A DNA stretch of 53,606 nt from a virus, in IMG/VR virus record IMGVR_UViG_3300017971_002684, positions 1-53,606 of that record. One strand, 5' to 3'. The first letter of the stretch is position 1, and every line of letters starts with the position of its first letter. Below the pieces are notes generated by a model. It had not been told where the DNA came from, searched no databases, and saw only the letters and a list, made by a program, of their open reading frames with translations. Shown piece by piece: positions 33,210 to 44,388 of this stretch. Made by a program: the position numbers and the translations under genes.

Positions 33210-33640
33210 TTTGCCCAGTCTGTGGAGCGTTGATGTTTACCCCTGAGCCTGCCTACCTCTTCAAAGACAAAGAGTTCAATGTCCCAGAAGACAAGGTGCT
33301 GTCTGGCTGTCTGTGCTGGGTTCAGGTGGAGGAACTGGAGAACGCCTATCAGGTGGTGAAGGAGACGTTGGCAAGGACCGTGAGGGAGCACCTCTATGGG
33401 GAGACGTGGGATGAGATTTTGGAGGAGGTGGGGCAGATGGCTCCAGGCACACCCATCCGGGAGTTTGTCTTGCGGAAGCGGACCCTGCTCACGCGGGCGC
33501 GTGACAAGATTCAGGAGTTGCGCGGCAAGGAAGCTGAAACCCGCCATGTTGCTCAGGCAAAGAAGACCGCCCGCAAAAAAGGCATTAGTGGCAAAGAGTT
33601 GAGCCTGCGGGAGTTCATGGACAGCTTTGATCCCAAGTGA
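33206..33640 (+). CDS. Zinc-binding protein of unknown function
   Basis: 144 residues. The N-terminus has 'CPVCGA' and a later 'CLC' (about 34-36), suggesting a zinc knuckle. The rest is helical and basic (RKRTLLTRARDKIQEL, 'AKKTARKKG'). The ATG overlaps the clamp stop. A clamp- or DNA-associated adaptor is a guess based on that coupling. Confidence 0.55.
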   Translation: MICPVCGALMFTPEPAYLFKDKEFNVPEDKVLSGCLCWVQVEELENAYQVVKETLARTVREHLYGETWDEILEEVGQMAPGTPIREFVLRKRTLLTRARDKIQELRGKEAETRHVAQAKKTARKKGISGKELSLREFMDSFDPK

Positions 33641-33643
33641 GCA

Positions 33644-33669
33644 AAAAATCCCCGTTGCTTGTCTCTAAG
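33644..33669 (+). promoter_or_regulatory. Composite element, degenerate: AAAAATC-N11-TCTCTAAG before the tRNA-like gene
   Basis: The A-box starts 3 nt after the preceding stop codon; the downstream half ends 9 nt before the tRNA-like gene begins (33679). A -10 box in this position would start RNA at the 5' end of the tRNA, which supports the promoter reading of the whole element family. Confidence 0.65.
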
Positions 33670-33678
33670 AGTGGCAGA

Positions 33679-33808
33679 CGGCTGGTAGCTCAATGGGAAA
33701 CAAGAGCGCCACTGCATCAGGACGCTGGTAGGTTACTCCAGCGTGATGGCGCCCATGCTGGAGCGGCTGAAGAGGTGGCAGATGCGGGTTCGACTCCCGT
33801 CCAGCCGG
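33679..33808 (+). tRNA. tRNA-like gene with a 53-nt insertion in the anticodon arm (Phe-GAA if spliced)
   Basis: A perfect 7-bp acceptor stem pairs 33679-33685 with 33801-33807. T8-A9 follow, then a 4-bp D-stem (GCTC/GAGC) with a GG-containing loop. The T-arm is GCGGG-TTCGACT-CCCGT (33784-33800). The anticodon stem fits CCACT (33709-33713) with GGTGG (33774-33778), giving a canonical 5-nt variable loop, but 60 nt lie between. Removing 33714-33766 would leave loop CTGAAGA, a normal Phe (GAA) loop. CCA is not encoded. The insertion is too short for a group I intron and is itself able to form stems. Without tools I cannot tell a spliced tRNA from a decayed or altered one. Confidence 0.75.
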
Positions 33809-33843
33809 AAAGACCATGACCCAACACAAAGGAGACAAAATCA

Positions 33844-34134
33844 ATGCGTGACCCCTTTGCCAACTATGACGCTTGGAAGACAGCCTGCCCCCCAGAACCC
33901 CCGGAGCCCCCAGAGCAAACCTTCACCTACAATGAAGAGGATGAGGTCTGGGAATGGACCTGTGAGGACGGCTCCTCTGGCACCGTTTACCTGCTCCCGG
34001 AAGCTGATGAGGATGCTCTGCTGGAAGCCAGCTATGATGACTGGCTGGGACAGGCCAGTGCTGCGGCAGAGGAAGAGTATGAGCGGGAAGCAGAGGGCAT
34101 GTATGAAGACTGGGAAGAGTGGGGGAGCAAATGA
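33844..34134 (+). CDS. Small acidic Trp-rich protein
   Basis: 96 residues after AAAGGAG. Asp, Glu and Trp dominate ('EEDEVWEWTCEDG', 'YEDWEEWGSK'). Strongly acidic small proteins of phages often mimic DNA or bind host regulators. No family is recognised. The stop overlaps the next ATG. Confidence 0.6.
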   Translation: MRDPFANYDAWKTACPPEPPEPPEQTFTYNEEDEVWEWTCEDGSSGTVYLLPEADEDALLEASYDDWLGQASAAAEEEYEREAEGMYEDWEEWGSK

Positions 34135-35762: not shown

Positions 35763-36155
35763 ATGACCACCAACGTCAACAACAATCCCCAGCCCCAAGA
35801 CGCCCCCGTTGCCGTGATGAAAGACTCCCAGCTCAACAAGCTGGCTGGCCTGCTCATGGGCTACTACAACGGCAAACCTGGAACCATTGAGATTGTGATG
35901 GATACCTGTGGCAAGTGGCCTGCCACCCGCTACTATGAGGATGTCAACCGGGTCATTAAGGCTGAGGACGCCTCCTACTTCCTGCCCCTCCTGGAGCAGA
36001 TCGGCGTCACCAACACCCAGGGTTCCCCTGTTGGACCCAAGCTGGAGCGTGCTGCCCGGTTGGTGGGGCTCCACATCAACATCCGCTACAGTGACACCAC
36101 AGGCCAGGATGAAATCCGCCTTTCCCATGACCCTGATCAATTCATTGAAGAGTGA
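35763..36155 (+). CDS. Small protein of unknown function
   Basis: 130 residues from the ATG after TAGGAG (an upstream GTG at 35727 overlaps the promoter-like element). The N-terminus is Asn/Pro-rich; the core contains 'YYNGKPGTIEIVMDTCGKWPATRYYEDVNRV'-type alpha/beta elements. No family is recognised. The stop overlaps the next A-box. Confidence 0.55.
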   Translation: MTTNVNNNPQPQDAPVAVMKDSQLNKLAGLLMGYYNGKPGTIEIVMDTCGKWPATRYYEDVNRVIKAEDASYFLPLLEQIGVTNTQGSPVGPKLERAARLVGLHINIRYSDTTGQDEIRLSHDPDQFIEE

Positions 36156-36187
36156 AAAATCCCCTTCCCGCCTATTAGATTCTAATA
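36155..36187 (+). promoter_or_regulatory. Composite element: AAAAATC-N11-TATTAG-ATT-CTAATA
   Basis: A full copy; the A-box overlaps the TGA of the gene before. The dyad is perfect, followed by AAAGGAGGTG and an ATG 20 nt downstream. Confidence 0.8.
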
Positions 36188-36207
36188 GAGAAAGGAGGTG
36201 GCTTGTC

Positions 36208-36792: not shown

Positions 36793-36803
36793 TCTTTTTT
36801 GTG

Positions 36804-36836
36804 AAAAATTCACCTTCCGCCTATTAGTTTCTAATA
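36804..36836 (+). promoter_or_regulatory. Composite element: AAAAATT-N11-TATTAG-TTT-CTAATA
   Basis: A full copy preceded by GTG, with a perfect dyad. The CobS-like gene begins 29 nt later. The A-box is not tied to a stop codon here, showing that GTGAAAAATT itself is conserved. Confidence 0.8.
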
Positions 36837-36865
36837 GACCAAGACAAGGCAAGATGGAGGAAACC

Positions 36866-38056
36866 ATGAGTGTGAAAAAGGAACCTGTGGCAGTTGAGCC
36901 TGCCAGCCGTGAGGATGAGAAGACCGGGGGTGTTGCAGCAGAGGTGAAGTATAGCAGTGAGGGTTTGCCCGTGTGCCGTCTGTGCGGTGAAGCCATCCGG
37001 GAGATGGCTCCCCACATTGAGAAGATGCACGGCATGTCACCAACGGACTACCAGGAACGCTATCCGGACTGGCCTTTGGAGCCCCTGACACTGGGCGCTG
37101 CCATCCGTGAGGGCTCCCTCTCCTACCTGGACCGTCCCAAAGAGCAGTACAGTGTGCTGGAAACCTTTGGGTTCTACTGGAATGAGAAAAAGAAAAAAGA
37201 CAAGATGGTGTGGGGCTACAAGAGCCCAGGACCGCTCACTCCACCCATTGATCCCACCTATGTCTTCAACCCGGAATACACGCCGGTCTTGCTCCTGGGG
37301 CTCCACAAGCGCAACAAGGTGCTGTGCTACGGTCCCTCTGGGTCCGGCAAAACGTCCATTTGGCAGCAGATCGCTGCCAGACTCAACTATAACTGTGTCC
37401 GCATCAATTTTGACGCTGGCATCAGCCGTGCAGACCTTGTGGGGCAGTGGATCGTCAAGGGCAAGGAGATGAATTTTGCCCACGGCATTCTCCCCAAAGC
37501 CATGCTCCTGCCGGGGACCATCATCATCTTTGATGAGTGGGACTCCATCTCTGAGGAGTGCAGCTTTGTGCTTCAGCGCCCCCTTGAGGAGCACAGCCAG
37601 TTGATGCTGCTTGAGAAGGGTGAAGAGGTTGTCACACTCCATGAGGACAACCTGATTGTGGCAACCGCAAACACCGCAGGGCTCGGTGATGACACCGGGC
37701 TCTACAGTGCAGGCACGCGCATCCAAAACTTTAGTCAGATCAACCGCTACCAGCTTTGTGTCATCATGGACTACCTTCCGCCGGAAGAGGAAGCCAAAAT
37801 CCTGCTCAAGCGGTTCCCTGATGATGTTGACCAGGATGAGGCAGAGATGATGGTAGCTGCCGCCAACCTCATCCGTGAGGCGTTCCAAAACAAGCAGTTG
37901 TCCACCCCCATTTCAACCCGTGACGTGGTGAACTGGGCGGAAAAGTACGCAGTGTGGGGCAATCCGCTCCGGGCGGCAACGTACTGTTTCATCAACCGCT
38001 CCCCCATTGAAGACCGTGAGACGCTGCAAAAACTCATCAAGAGGGTCATGCCATGA
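36866..38056 (+). CDS. CobS-like AAA+ ATPase with N-terminal MucR-type zinc finger
   Basis: 396 residues from the ATG at 36866 (GGAGG 5 nt before it). The N-terminal zinc finger has C37, C40, H50 and H55 with 'HGMSPTDYQERYP', as in MucR/Ros regulators. The AAA+ core has Walker A 'GPSGSGKTS' (about 156-164), 'NCVRINFDAGISRADLVG', Walker B 'IIIFDEWDS' (about 219-227) and 'ATANTAGLGDDTGLY', closely matching cobaltochelatase CobS/MoxR ATPases. No CobN is nearby. It overlaps the VWA gene (ATGA). Such pairs likely remodel a protein target, as MoxR-VWA systems do; metal chelation is less likely. Confidence 0.85.
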   Translation: MSVKKEPVAVEPASREDEKTGGVAAEVKYSSEGLPVCRLCGEAIREMAPHIEKMHGMSPTDYQERYPDWPLEPLTLGAAIREGSLSYLDRPKEQYSVLETFGFYWNEKKKKDKMVWGYKSPGPLTPPIDPTYVFNPEYTPVLLLGLHKRNKVLCYGPSGSGKTSIWQQIAARLNYNCVRINFDAGISRADLVGQWIVKGKEMNFAHGILPKAMLLPGTIIIFDEWDSISEECSFVLQRPLEEHSQLMLLEKGEEVVTLHEDNLIVATANTAGLGDDTGLYSAGTRIQNFSQINRYQLCVIMDYLPPEEEAKILLKRFPDDVDQDEAEMMVAAANLIREAFQNKQLSTPISTRDVVNWAEKYAVWGNPLRAATYCFINRSPIEDRETLQKLIKRVMP

Positions 38057-39786
38057 GGCAACAAGAGGTCTATGAGTCCAGCTTGGAGAAGGTGTCACGC
38101 ATCCTCAGTGATCGCTATGACATCCGGGTGAGCCACCACGGAGACAAGTGCTACACGGACGGGCGCAACATTGTGCTGCCAGCCATCCCAGAGGACGCCC
38201 CAGAAGGGCTCCTGGAGGCAATGGAGGGCTACCTGGACCATGAGACAGGGCATGTCATCTTTGATGACTTTGAGGTCTTGAAGCAAGTGCTGGACCCTTT
38301 TACCCGCATGTGGACCAACGCTTTCTGTGACCCCCGCATCCGTCACCAGATGGAAGACAAGTGGAGGGGGTGTGGCAAGAACTTCCGTGCTGCCGCAGAT
38401 TTTACCTTTGAAAAGCGTGTGTTGCCCAAGTGGGAGGAGTCCAGCGATCTGATGAACTTGATCCGCACTTGCATCTACTACATGGAAGAGGAAGTGGAAA
38501 AGCTCAAGACCATCCCCAACTACAAGGAATGGTTGAGGAAGATCAAGCCCCTTCAGCCAGCTTTAAAGATGGCGCGGGAGGCTGGTGACACCCTTCATTC
38601 CCTTGCGCTGGCCTGCTGGGTTGTCCGCACAATGGGCAGAGAGCCAGAACTGGGAGAGATACCAGAGCCAGAACCGGGCTTCCTTGAGGAACTGTTCAAG
38701 AAGCTGGGAGCCATGCTCCCGCCTATGGGTAGCGGCAAGGAACTGGCTGAGGAGTTTGCTGGAGCCTCTCCAGAGGAAGCTGAAGAGGTAGCAAAGGAGT
38801 TGGAGAGCGCCACGGCAGAGGCTATCAGTGAAGAGTGCGGTGGGTTCACCCACCATGATGTGCGGGGCATGACGGACTACTATGTGCCCTACTCTACCAG
38901 CCACGATCAAGTTGAAGTGGTCCCGCCTGGAGACAAGAAGGTGTTTTTGAAGGATTTGGATGAGGTCCGCAAAAACAGTGGCGTGTTGACCCGGCACCTG
39001 CGGACCACCCTTGTTGCCCGTGCCCAGTCATGTTGGGAGTATGAGAAGAGTTCTGGTCAACTGAACCCACGCGCCTTTCCGCGCCTGCTCACCCAGGGAT
39101 ACGCCAAGGTGTTCAAGCAACGGTCTGTGGGGGAGGTTCTGCACGGGAGGGCGTGCCTTTTAGTGGACCAGAGTGGCTCCATGCGGTGGGGACGCAAGTA
39201 CAAAGAAGCCCGCAGGGCGTCAACCATGTTTGGTGAGTTTCTGGACAAACTAAACATCCCTTTTGAGATTCTGGGGTTCTCCACAGTCAGCTTTGATGAT
39301 GAGGAGGAGCGGTATGCCAACGCCTCTGAGGAGGACCAGCAGAGGTACACACGCTGGGGAGACATGCGGATTGATATCTACAAGCAATTCCATGAGTCTT
39401 TCCAAAAGGTTGGGCACCGGCTCTCTCACATGAACGCCTACTGCCACAACTATGACGGAGAGGCAGTCCGGCTGGCAGGCCAGAGGCTCTTGCTTGCGCG
39501 GCGTGACCCCAAGGAGCGGCTGATTCTGTTTGTGTTCAGTGATGGACGCCCAGAGCAGGCGGTCCCTGACTACCAGCCCCACCATCAACGCTACCTGCAC
39601 CGGGTCATTGAAGACCTGACACTGCGGGGAGTTGAAACCATTGGAATAGGGATTTGTGACTCCAGCGTTGAGAACTACTACCCCAGCAACATAGTGATCA
39701 CGGACCCGGCAGACCTGATGAGCGCCCAGTTCCTCAAATTGAAGGAGGTTCTGATGGCAGGAAGAGGGGGGAGGCGGCGGAGATAA
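38053..39786 (+). CDS. CobT-like VWA-domain protein with N-terminal HETGH motif
   Basis: 577 residues overlapping the AAA+ gene. HETGH (63-67) in 'YLDHETGHVIFDDF' has the HExxH zinc-protease pattern. A helical middle carries Glu-rich stretches. The C-terminal VWA domain has the MIDAS 'DQSGS' (371-375) and 'FVFSDGRPEQAV'. The end is basic (GRGGRRRR). CobT and related VWA proteins pair with CobS/MoxR ATPases. The HExxH near the N-terminus may make it a regulated peptidase. The gene pair is likely one functional unit. Confidence 0.82.
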   Translation: MRQQEVYESSLEKVSRILSDRYDIRVSHHGDKCYTDGRNIVLPAIPEDAPEGLLEAMEGYLDHETGHVIFDDFEVLKQVLDPFTRMWTNAFCDPRIRHQMEDKWRGCGKNFRAAADFTFEKRVLPKWEESSDLMNLIRTCIYYMEEEVEKLKTIPNYKEWLRKIKPLQPALKMAREAGDTLHSLALACWVVRTMGREPELGEIPEPEPGFLEELFKKLGAMLPPMGSGKELAEEFAGASPEEAEEVAKELESATAEAISEECGGFTHHDVRGMTDYYVPYSTSHDQVEVVPPGDKKVFLKDLDEVRKNSGVLTRHLRTTLVARAQSCWEYEKSSGQLNPRAFPRLLTQGYAKVFKQRSVGEVLHGRACLLVDQSGSMRWGRKYKEARRASTMFGEFLDKLNIPFEILGFSTVSFDDEEERYANASEEDQQRYTRWGDMRIDIYKQFHESFQKVGHRLSHMNAYCHNYDGEAVRLAGQRLLLARRDPKERLILFVFSDGRPEQAVPDYQPHHQRYLHRVIEDLTLRGVETIGIGICDSSVENYYPSNIVITDPADLMSAQFLKLKEVLMAGRGGRRRR

Positions 39787-42798: not shown

Positions 42799-42995
42799 AG
42801 GAACTGCATACACTGGCTCCGTGCCTTTTTGATGACCTCTTGGAAGCCTTGGACAAACTGCGCCAGAATGGGGAGGGGGTTGCCACGGCATTCATGAAGT
42901 GGGTAGAGGAGCCGGTGGACCAACCCTTGACCCTCACGGAAGCTGCCCAGGACTCCCAAGGGTTTTTGTGTGGATACAAACCCCCAAAGGAGTAG
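42786..42995 (+). CDS. Small ORF, uncertain start (possible frameshift product)
   Basis: 69 codons from a TTG with no ribosome binding site; the frame is -1 to the 29-codon ORF it overlaps. The product is helical ('LFDDLLEALDKLRQNGEGVATAFMKWVEE') and ends 4 bases before the kinase gene. It may be reached by frameshift from 42709 or by re-initiation, but no canonical slippery heptamer was found. Confidence 0.4.
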   Translation: MCLLKELHTLAPCLFDDLLEALDKLRQNGEGVATAFMKWVEEPVDQPLTLTEAAQDSQGFLCGYKPPKE

Positions 42996-42999
42996 GAAC

Positions 43000-43704
43000 A
43001 TGGAAACATCTCTCCCCCCTTGTTGGATTGACCCACCGGATGGTCCGCCCCAGCGCATCATTGTTGAGGGGCTGATTGGAGCCGGGAAGACCAGCCTTTC
43101 CAAAGCCCTGTCTGTTTTGACTGGCTACCACCTCATGGAGGAGCCCGTTGAGGACAATGAACTGCTCCCCCTCTTCTATGAAGACCCGGAGCGGTGGGGT
43201 TTTGCTATGCAGGTGAAGATGCTCACAAGCCGTCTTGCAATGGAAAAGGCGGCAACCTACATGGTCCAGGCAGGGCTGGTCCAGGGAGCCATTGCAGACC
43301 GCTCTCTGGGGGGAGACACCGTGTTTCTGGAGGTCAACTCCATCATTGGCAACATCTGTCCCCAAGAGCGTGACCTGTACCTCAACCTCTATGAGCAGAT
43401 GAAGATCACATGCCCCTACCCGGACGTGGTGCTCTATCTGCGTGTATCACCAGACGTGATCCGGGAGCGCATCCGTGACCGTGGGCGTGAGTTTGAACTG
43501 CCTTTGACGGAAATGGAGAACAACTACCTGGAACTGCTGGAAGAGGCATACTCCCGCTTTTGCTCTGCCATGACCCGCCACACAACGGTTGTCATGCTGG
43601 ACTGGGATGAGTTTTTGCCAGTGGAGGACGTGTGGTGGCAGGTGCTTGAGCAGTGGGACCAGGAGAACCAGAACCGCCACCAAAAGCGGCTCATGCGCTG
43701 GTAG
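43000..43704 (+). CDS. Deoxynucleoside kinase
   Basis: 234 residues from the ATG after AAAGGAG. P-loop 'EGLIGAGKTS' (about 23-32), the 'DRSLGGDTVF' substrate motif, and the lid 'LRVSPDVIRERIRDRGREFE' match the dCK/dGK/TK2 family. The enzyme phosphorylates deoxynucleosides with ATP; base preference cannot be read here. It starts a small salvage pathway with the next gene, raising dNTP supply during replication. Confidence 0.85.
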   Translation: METSLPPCWIDPPDGPPQRIIVEGLIGAGKTSLSKALSVLTGYHLMEEPVEDNELLPLFYEDPERWGFAMQVKMLTSRLAMEKAATYMVQAGLVQGAIADRSLGGDTVFLEVNSIIGNICPQERDLYLNLYEQMKITCPYPDVVLYLRVSPDVIRERIRDRGREFELPLTEMENNYLELLEEAYSRFCSAMTRHTTVVMLDWDEFLPVEDVWWQVLEQWDQENQNRHQKRLMRW

Positions 43705-43722
43705 GTGGCAAAGGAAAGAGCA

Positions 43723-44388
43723 GTGATCAAAAAAGGCTTCTTGTTTGAGATAGAGGGACCAGATGGTGTGGGGAAGACTACCCTGTTCCACCTGCTCCAA
43801 GAGCAAATTGACATGTGGCGCTACAAGTTTGAGAGCCACAACTCTGTGGGGGTAGTCCTGGACTCAGAGCCCACCTTTCTCCAGCGTGAGCTGTCCGCCA
43901 CGCCCAAAGAGAACTGGCTCCGCCACCTGTTCCTGTTTTGGCTCCAGCGGCGCATGGCGTTCAGCGGCAGGTGGGGAGAGATGTTGGACCGCAACAACAT
44001 CTTGCTGAAGGATCGCGGCGTGGTGTCATCCTGTGTCTACCAAGCCCTGTGTGGGGACATTGACCCCCTCTTGATTCTGGACGCCCACAGTGATGACATT
44101 GTGTTGCCTAACCTTTGCGTGCTCCTGCGTATCTCAGAGGAGACAGCCCAGCGCCGGTTGAAAGCACGGGGGAAGGTCCGCAACGGGAGTCTGGATGATT
44201 TTGACCGTGACGCCCGGTTCCAGGCACAGGTCCGGCAACTGTACCACAACATCATGGGCATTCCCCGGTTCCGCTCCTTTTGTGTGGAGGTGATGGCTGA
44301 GGACTCCCCCCAGGAGGTTTGTGATGCGGTTTGGGCAGTTGCGGAGCCACGCCTCAACAAGTGGCACAAAGACCTCTATGAAGAGTGA
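43723..44388 (+). CDS. tmk: Thymidylate kinase-like nucleotide kinase
   Basis: 221 residues from the GTG at 43723, which has AAAGGA 7 nt upstream; a GTG at 43705 has no such site. P-loop 'EGPDGVGKTT' (11-20), 'DRGVVSSCVYQ' and 'LLRISEETAQRRLKARGK' match dTMP kinase. It makes dTDP from dTMP. It is coupled in position to the deoxynucleoside kinase. Confidence 0.8.
   Translation: MIKKGFLFEIEGPDGVGKTTLFHLLQEQIDMWRYKFESHNSVGVVLDSEPTFLQRELSATPKENWLRHLFLFWLQRRMAFSGRWGEMLDRNNILLKDRGVVSSCVYQALCGDIDPLLILDAHSDDIVLPNLCVLLRISEETAQRRLKARGKVRNGSLDDFDRDARFQAQVRQLYHNIMGIPRFRSFCVEVMAEDSPQEVCDAVWAVAEPRLNKWHKDLYEE

Follow-up and report, generated by a model that had tools for sequence, protein, structure and literature searches.

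The window, by which we mean the entire 53,606-nucleotide stretch of viral DNA analyzed here (IMG/VR record IMGVR_UViG_3300017971_002684), is the contig of a bacterial-type phage encoding DnaB, a Toprim primase, a beta clamp, UvsX, SbcCD and a CobS/CobT-like pair. The predicted bacterial-type clamp, DnaB and primase argue for a bacterial host. A non-coding gap in this contig contains a tRNA-like gene whose anticodon arm is interrupted by an intron-like insertion (Table 1). The acceptor, D and T arms, which a preliminary description of the sequence had called near-perfect, were all recovered, and the tRNA-like anatomy of positions 33679-33808 is confirmed as real.

Table 1. Features of the interrupted tRNA-like gene and the gap that contains it (positions in the window; nt, tRNA nucleotide numbering where indicated).
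Feature	Position	Strand	Basis and remarks
Non-coding gap around the element, 203 nt	33641..33843	.	ORF end at 33640, next ORF start at 33844
Acceptor stem, 5' strand CGGCTGG	33679..33685	+	7/7 Watson-Crick pairs with 33801-33807; fold
D arm	33688..33707	+	stem GCTC/GAGC, 4/4 pairs; loop of 12 nt, unusually long; sequence and fold
Anticodon stem, 5' strand CCACT (nt 27-31)	33709..33713	+	5/5 pairs (one G-U) with 33774-33778
Intron-like insertion, 53 nt, between nt 31 and 32	33714..33766	+	sole strict split solution; fold
Anticodon loop CTGAAGA, anticodon GAA (Phe)	33767..33773	+	split test
Anticodon stem, 3' strand GGTGG	33774..33778	+	split test
T arm GCGGG-TTCGACT-CCCGT	33784..33800	+	consensus T loop, one G-U; partial RF00005 match, 15.3 bits
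Acceptor stem, 3' strand CCAGCCG, and discriminator G73	33801..33808	+	CCA not encoded

A search pattern composed of a D arm, a long gap and a T arm matched once in the window and in 0/100 shuffled versions of it. Run in intron mode, ARAGORN called a single gene in the window, namely this element, as Phe(gaa), and across 100 shuffled windows it made 2 calls. With its default settings it called nothing at the element, and neither did Rfam at the gathering score; the 15.3-bit RF00005 match was obtained in a relaxed Rfam search. It is very improbable that the resemblance arose by chance in a coding or random region: although a 60-codon frame (33637-33819) is open through the element, the pattern did not occur in the shuffles, no PHROG match was found there, and the codon score lies far below that of real genes, all six frames of the 203-nt gap falling below their 5th percentile. 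A coding origin of the element was rejected on this score.

The insertion was delimited by a split test, in which all internal deletions that keep 22-24 nt between the D and T arms were evaluated under a strict rule requiring a 5/5 anticodon stem, U33 and a purine at position 37, with a limit on nucleotide 32. This exhaustive test returned one strict solution in the window, after nucleotide 31 (CCACT CTGAAGA GGTGG, Phe GAA), and it is the very removal of 33714-33766 that had earlier been proposed to restore a 5-bp anticodon stem with the loop CTGAAGA; strict solutions were found in 0.5% of shuffled cores (a rate of 0.005). The exact junction of the insertion is likely rather than certain, because a neighboring split after nucleotide 32 (loop GTGAAGA) also passes a looser rule and because ARAGORN scores a 40-nt deletion equally (116.7 versus 116.5 for the 53-nt deletion); the 40-nt deletion yields a class-II-like tRNA whose anticodon stem is mismatched. 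As the stem pairs across the insertion in any event, we estimate that a plausible loop would lie beside it by accident in about 2-9% of cases. Together with the dozens of similarly built viral tRNA genes described below, the single strict solution supports reading the element as a split tRNA gene.

Both hairpins previously suggested for the insertion are present in the sequence. The first pairs ACGCTGG (33722-33728) with CCAGCGT (33738-33744), and the second spans 33738-33761 (CCAGC-GTG-ATGG-CGC-CCAT-GCTGG); as CCAGC is common to both, the two are mutually exclusive. For the spliced 77-mer, the fold obtained is a cloverleaf (z -3.0), and the unspliced 130-mer keeps a full cloverleaf with an anticodon helix extended over 13 positions (MFE -59 kcal/mol, z -2.5). 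Because the unspliced RNA retains this stable cloverleaf with its long arm, a non-decoding RNA is possible: the element could encode a stable tRNA-like molecule whose long anticodon arm is itself functional and which never decodes; it might lure tRNA-binding enzymes or nucleases as a decoy, or mark a site for processing by RNase P or RNase Z. Such a role would also suit an element that stands alone in its contig, and other lone phage tRNA-like genes without a normal anticodon arm exist, as in Mycobacterium phage Whirlwind with its arm of about 11 nt. It would leave the restorable Phe loop unexplained, however, and the insertion folded alone is only mildly better than chance (z -1.7), and no conservation was found that would point to selection on the long arm; we therefore consider an unspliced product somewhat unlikely.

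Judging from its anticodon and loop, the element is probably a tRNA-Phe(GAA) gene, yet it carries G73, where A73 is a bacterial identity element, and a 12-nt D loop; with the C1-G72 pair, these features are poor for tRNA-Phe. G37 is also present in 38 of the 79 tRNA-Phe genes among the collected loci. The atypical D loop and G73, the solitary state of the gene and its want of relatives would all fit a tRNA gene in decay, broken by an insertion or an internal duplication and now drifting, as would the recurrence within the insertion of GCTGGTAG from the 5' end of the tRNA itself, although by our estimate so short a repeat has about a 5% likelihood of arising by accident. That decay does happen among phage tRNA genes is suggested by the remnant-like, unannotated Whirlwind element, which the inspected relatives do not retain at its position. 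In the window, by contrast, the stems are all intact without a mismatch, a pairing that a drifting gene would soon lose, and this argues against advanced decay; we regard this explanation as unlikely.

Several isolated phages carry comparable fragments. Mycobacterium phage Whirlwind (L266:560-633) has an unannotated tRNA-like gene in which the acceptor and T arms are good and the anticodon arm is stunted, and similar unannotated stunted-arm genes are present in Curtobacterium phage Yappy (L271, about 365-430) and Roseobacter phage DSS3P8 (L270, about 365-430). In Xanthomonas phage DoCa6 (L267, about 545-632), the terminase gene is closely followed by the 3' half of a tRNA-like structure that includes a long anticodon hairpin (CCACCT...AGGTGG); no acceptor partner for it was found.

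Short introns in the anticodon arm are characteristic of archaeal and eukaryal tRNAs, where a bulge-helix-bulge is processed by EndA or TSEN, and the preliminary description had raised this comparison. The archaeal introns are similar in length to the insertion, and the element's CUGAAGA loop with G37 occurs in archaeal tRNA-Phe too. Archaeal and eukaryal introns, however, lie at 37/38 with a bulge-helix-bulge, whereas the window's insertion lies at 31/32 of a gene in a bacterial-type phage. The motif was defined as a 4-bp helix flanked at the splice sites by two bulges of 3 nt each, at 37/38 or elsewhere. The window forms 2/4 central pairs at 31/32, while 18/20 archaeal controls form 3-4 at 37/38, these controls having been drawn from the matches of a GC-rich pattern in genome contigs, which were mostly archaeal bulge-helix-bulge introns with some bacterial loci. 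With the wrong position, no bulge-helix-bulge and bacterial-type replication genes (DnaB, Toprim primase, beta clamp), an archaeal-type intron in a virus of archaea is highly improbable.

Group I introns occur in bacterial and phage tRNA genes (PMC3984707), and like them the insertion interrupts the anticodon region, follows a 5' exon ending in U and itself ends in G. Its 53 nt, however, are far below the size of a catalytic core. The earlier judgment that it is too short for a group I intron is supported: up to an E value of 10, Rfam gave no match to a group I intron or ribozyme, and only tRNA and mascRNA fragments were listed. Bacterial 23S rRNA intervening sequences, which are removed by RNase III and not religated, offer another parallel as short hairpin insertions open to cleavage by a host RNase; the difference is that a tRNA, once cleaved in the anticodon arm, would need religation.

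Viral contigs were searched with general and further tRNA patterns, and genes with long anticodon regions were collected, yielding 109 unique long tRNA-like genes in which the acceptor, D and T arms are all perfect. Removal of one block leaves a perfect anticodon arm in 57/109, versus 2.7% of shuffled cores; as the loci were chosen by tRNA patterns, 57/109 is not a natural frequency. The insertions are 36-77 nt long, a range that includes the 53 nt of the window, and the anticodons are varied (Thr, Asn, Ile, Lys, Pro, Phe, Ser). Stem sequences vary across the set, yet stay paired across the insertion. Some of these genes are interrupted at 31/32, or keep the anticodon loop intact on the 3' side, like the window, and most carriers encode several to dozens of tRNAs. 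Short intron-like insertions are thus not rare in phage tRNA genes.

These viral insertions fall mostly into three types. Type A, with about 40 genes, consists of a hairpin followed by ACAGCAA (or ACTGCAA), is roughly 40-60 nt long and mostly splits the tRNA after nucleotide 28/29; excision gives perfect stems of varied sequence in most genes, and a strict solution is absent in some. Its carriers include L005, L012, L033, L038, L044, L046, L063, L081, L104, L110, L125, L139, L194, L198, L213, L219 and L222, among others. Type D insertions, found in L010, L020, L034, L036, L040, L108 and L162, end in GUUACUU(C) or a similar sequence right before the 3' exon, often after nucleotide 28. In type B, a T-arm hairpin is nested in the anticodon loop, as seen in Lak-A1 itself. 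No published description of types A and D was found in open-access text. Interrupted tRNA genes were also observed in bacterial assemblies, namely a Lachnospiraceae MAG (L231), L229, L238 (Nostoc) and L251 (Myxococcales); these resemble the phage families and may lie in prophage or phage contigs. In a separate group of tRNA-His(GTG)-like genes, the variable region is greatly expanded and structured, a feature conserved in several records (L050, L061, L062, L082, L083, L085, L113).

Introns in the tRNA genes of Lak megaphages were published in 2019 and reported as enigmatic (Devoto et al., PMC6784885), so the earlier suggestion that a short intron would be new in a phage does not stand. As in Lak, the window has a short anticodon-arm insertion in a phage tRNA gene, its removal restores a tRNA, and it belongs to no recognized intron class. 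In the wide sense, it is a candidate short phage tRNA intron, given that removing one block yields a canonical arm with the acceptor, D and T arms intact. The Lak-A1 gene (L277), however, carries, nested in its anticodon loop, a tRNA-like hairpin that includes a T arm, and belongs to a phage with many tRNAs, whereas the window's insertion is GC-rich and has neither a nested T arm nor many tRNAs beside it; a TTCRANY hairpin of the Lak kind is absent from 33714-33766. Type A insertions resemble it in length and in leaving the loop whole 3' of the insertion, and some members insert near nucleotides 31-33; most, unlike the window, insert after nucleotide 28/29 and consist of a hairpin and then ACAGCAA. 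Read directly from the sequence, the insertion has no ACAGCAA motif and splits the tRNA after nucleotide 31. With the signatures of types A, B and D all absent, it belongs to none of the three recurrent families and stands alone. Short phage tRNA introns are already known, and what is new is the GC-rich, isolated form in the window, a singleton variant of a known, poorly understood kind.

Our preferred reading, to which we assign a probability of roughly one half, is that the element is an interrupted phage tRNA gene whose 53-nt insertion is cut from the RNA by a route other than bulge-helix-bulge or group I splicing. In this scheme the transcript would form a cloverleaf with a lengthened anticodon arm, after which some activity of the host or the phage would excise the 53 nt and ligate the two halves into a 77-nt tRNA. 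Neither a group I ribozyme nor archaeal splicing endonuclease would be responsible. Three steps here are inferred: production of the RNA, removal of the insertion and use of the resulting tRNA. Splicing is favored by the fold of the spliced form as a tRNA, the lack of coding signal in the gap and the Lak precedent; against it stand the lack of an independent relative, the missing family motifs and the lone tRNA in the contig. More tentatively, the insertion might be the first example to be seen of a distinct, GC-rich class of very short tRNA introns, belonging to a wider and largely undescribed set in phage tRNA genes; excision and religation would then take place in a bacterial cell, through neither the bulge-helix-bulge nor the group I pathway. 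We hold this reading as possible but less likely than not. Splicing of short tRNA introns is not known from bacteria. Frequent interruption of phage tRNA genes, if followed by maturation in bacterial cells, would imply a new RNA splicing route, based on a very small ribozyme or on a pair of enzymes; phage tRNA counts would then be too low, because standard tools miss interrupted genes.

The sole match to the element is a contig 99.99% identical, an identity too close for that contig to inform on the insertion. Relatives sought through neighboring proteins (a 144-aa ORF, the beta clamp and DnaB) led only to the same near-identical contig, and element-specific, GC-rich and 3'-exon patterns detected no further member in viral contigs. 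No intron-less copy was found in viral contigs, nor relatives with or without the insertion, and a homologue search among isolated phages returned only T-arm matches in unannotated tRNA-like remnants. Within the contig, neither a second tRNA gene nor RtcB or a T4-type RNA ligase was found, and promoter and terminator scans gave nothing useful. RtcB was rejected as a partner of interrupted tRNA genes, being present in 2/26 records only; an Rnl2-type ligase occurs in 14/25 carriers versus 8/26 control records, a difference too small to lean on. A role of the element as an integration site was likewise rejected, a tyrosine integrase being absent from the contig.

Further features were observed downstream in the window. 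A pair of 38-bp repeats, 87% identical (36152-36189 and 36801-36838), flanks a short region upstream of an AAA gene. Adjoining genes for a CobS-like AAA ATPase and a CobT-like VWA protein occupy 36854-39786, a pair also seen in other large phages. Two tandem genes at 42970-44388 both match the thymidylate kinase PHROG 761.
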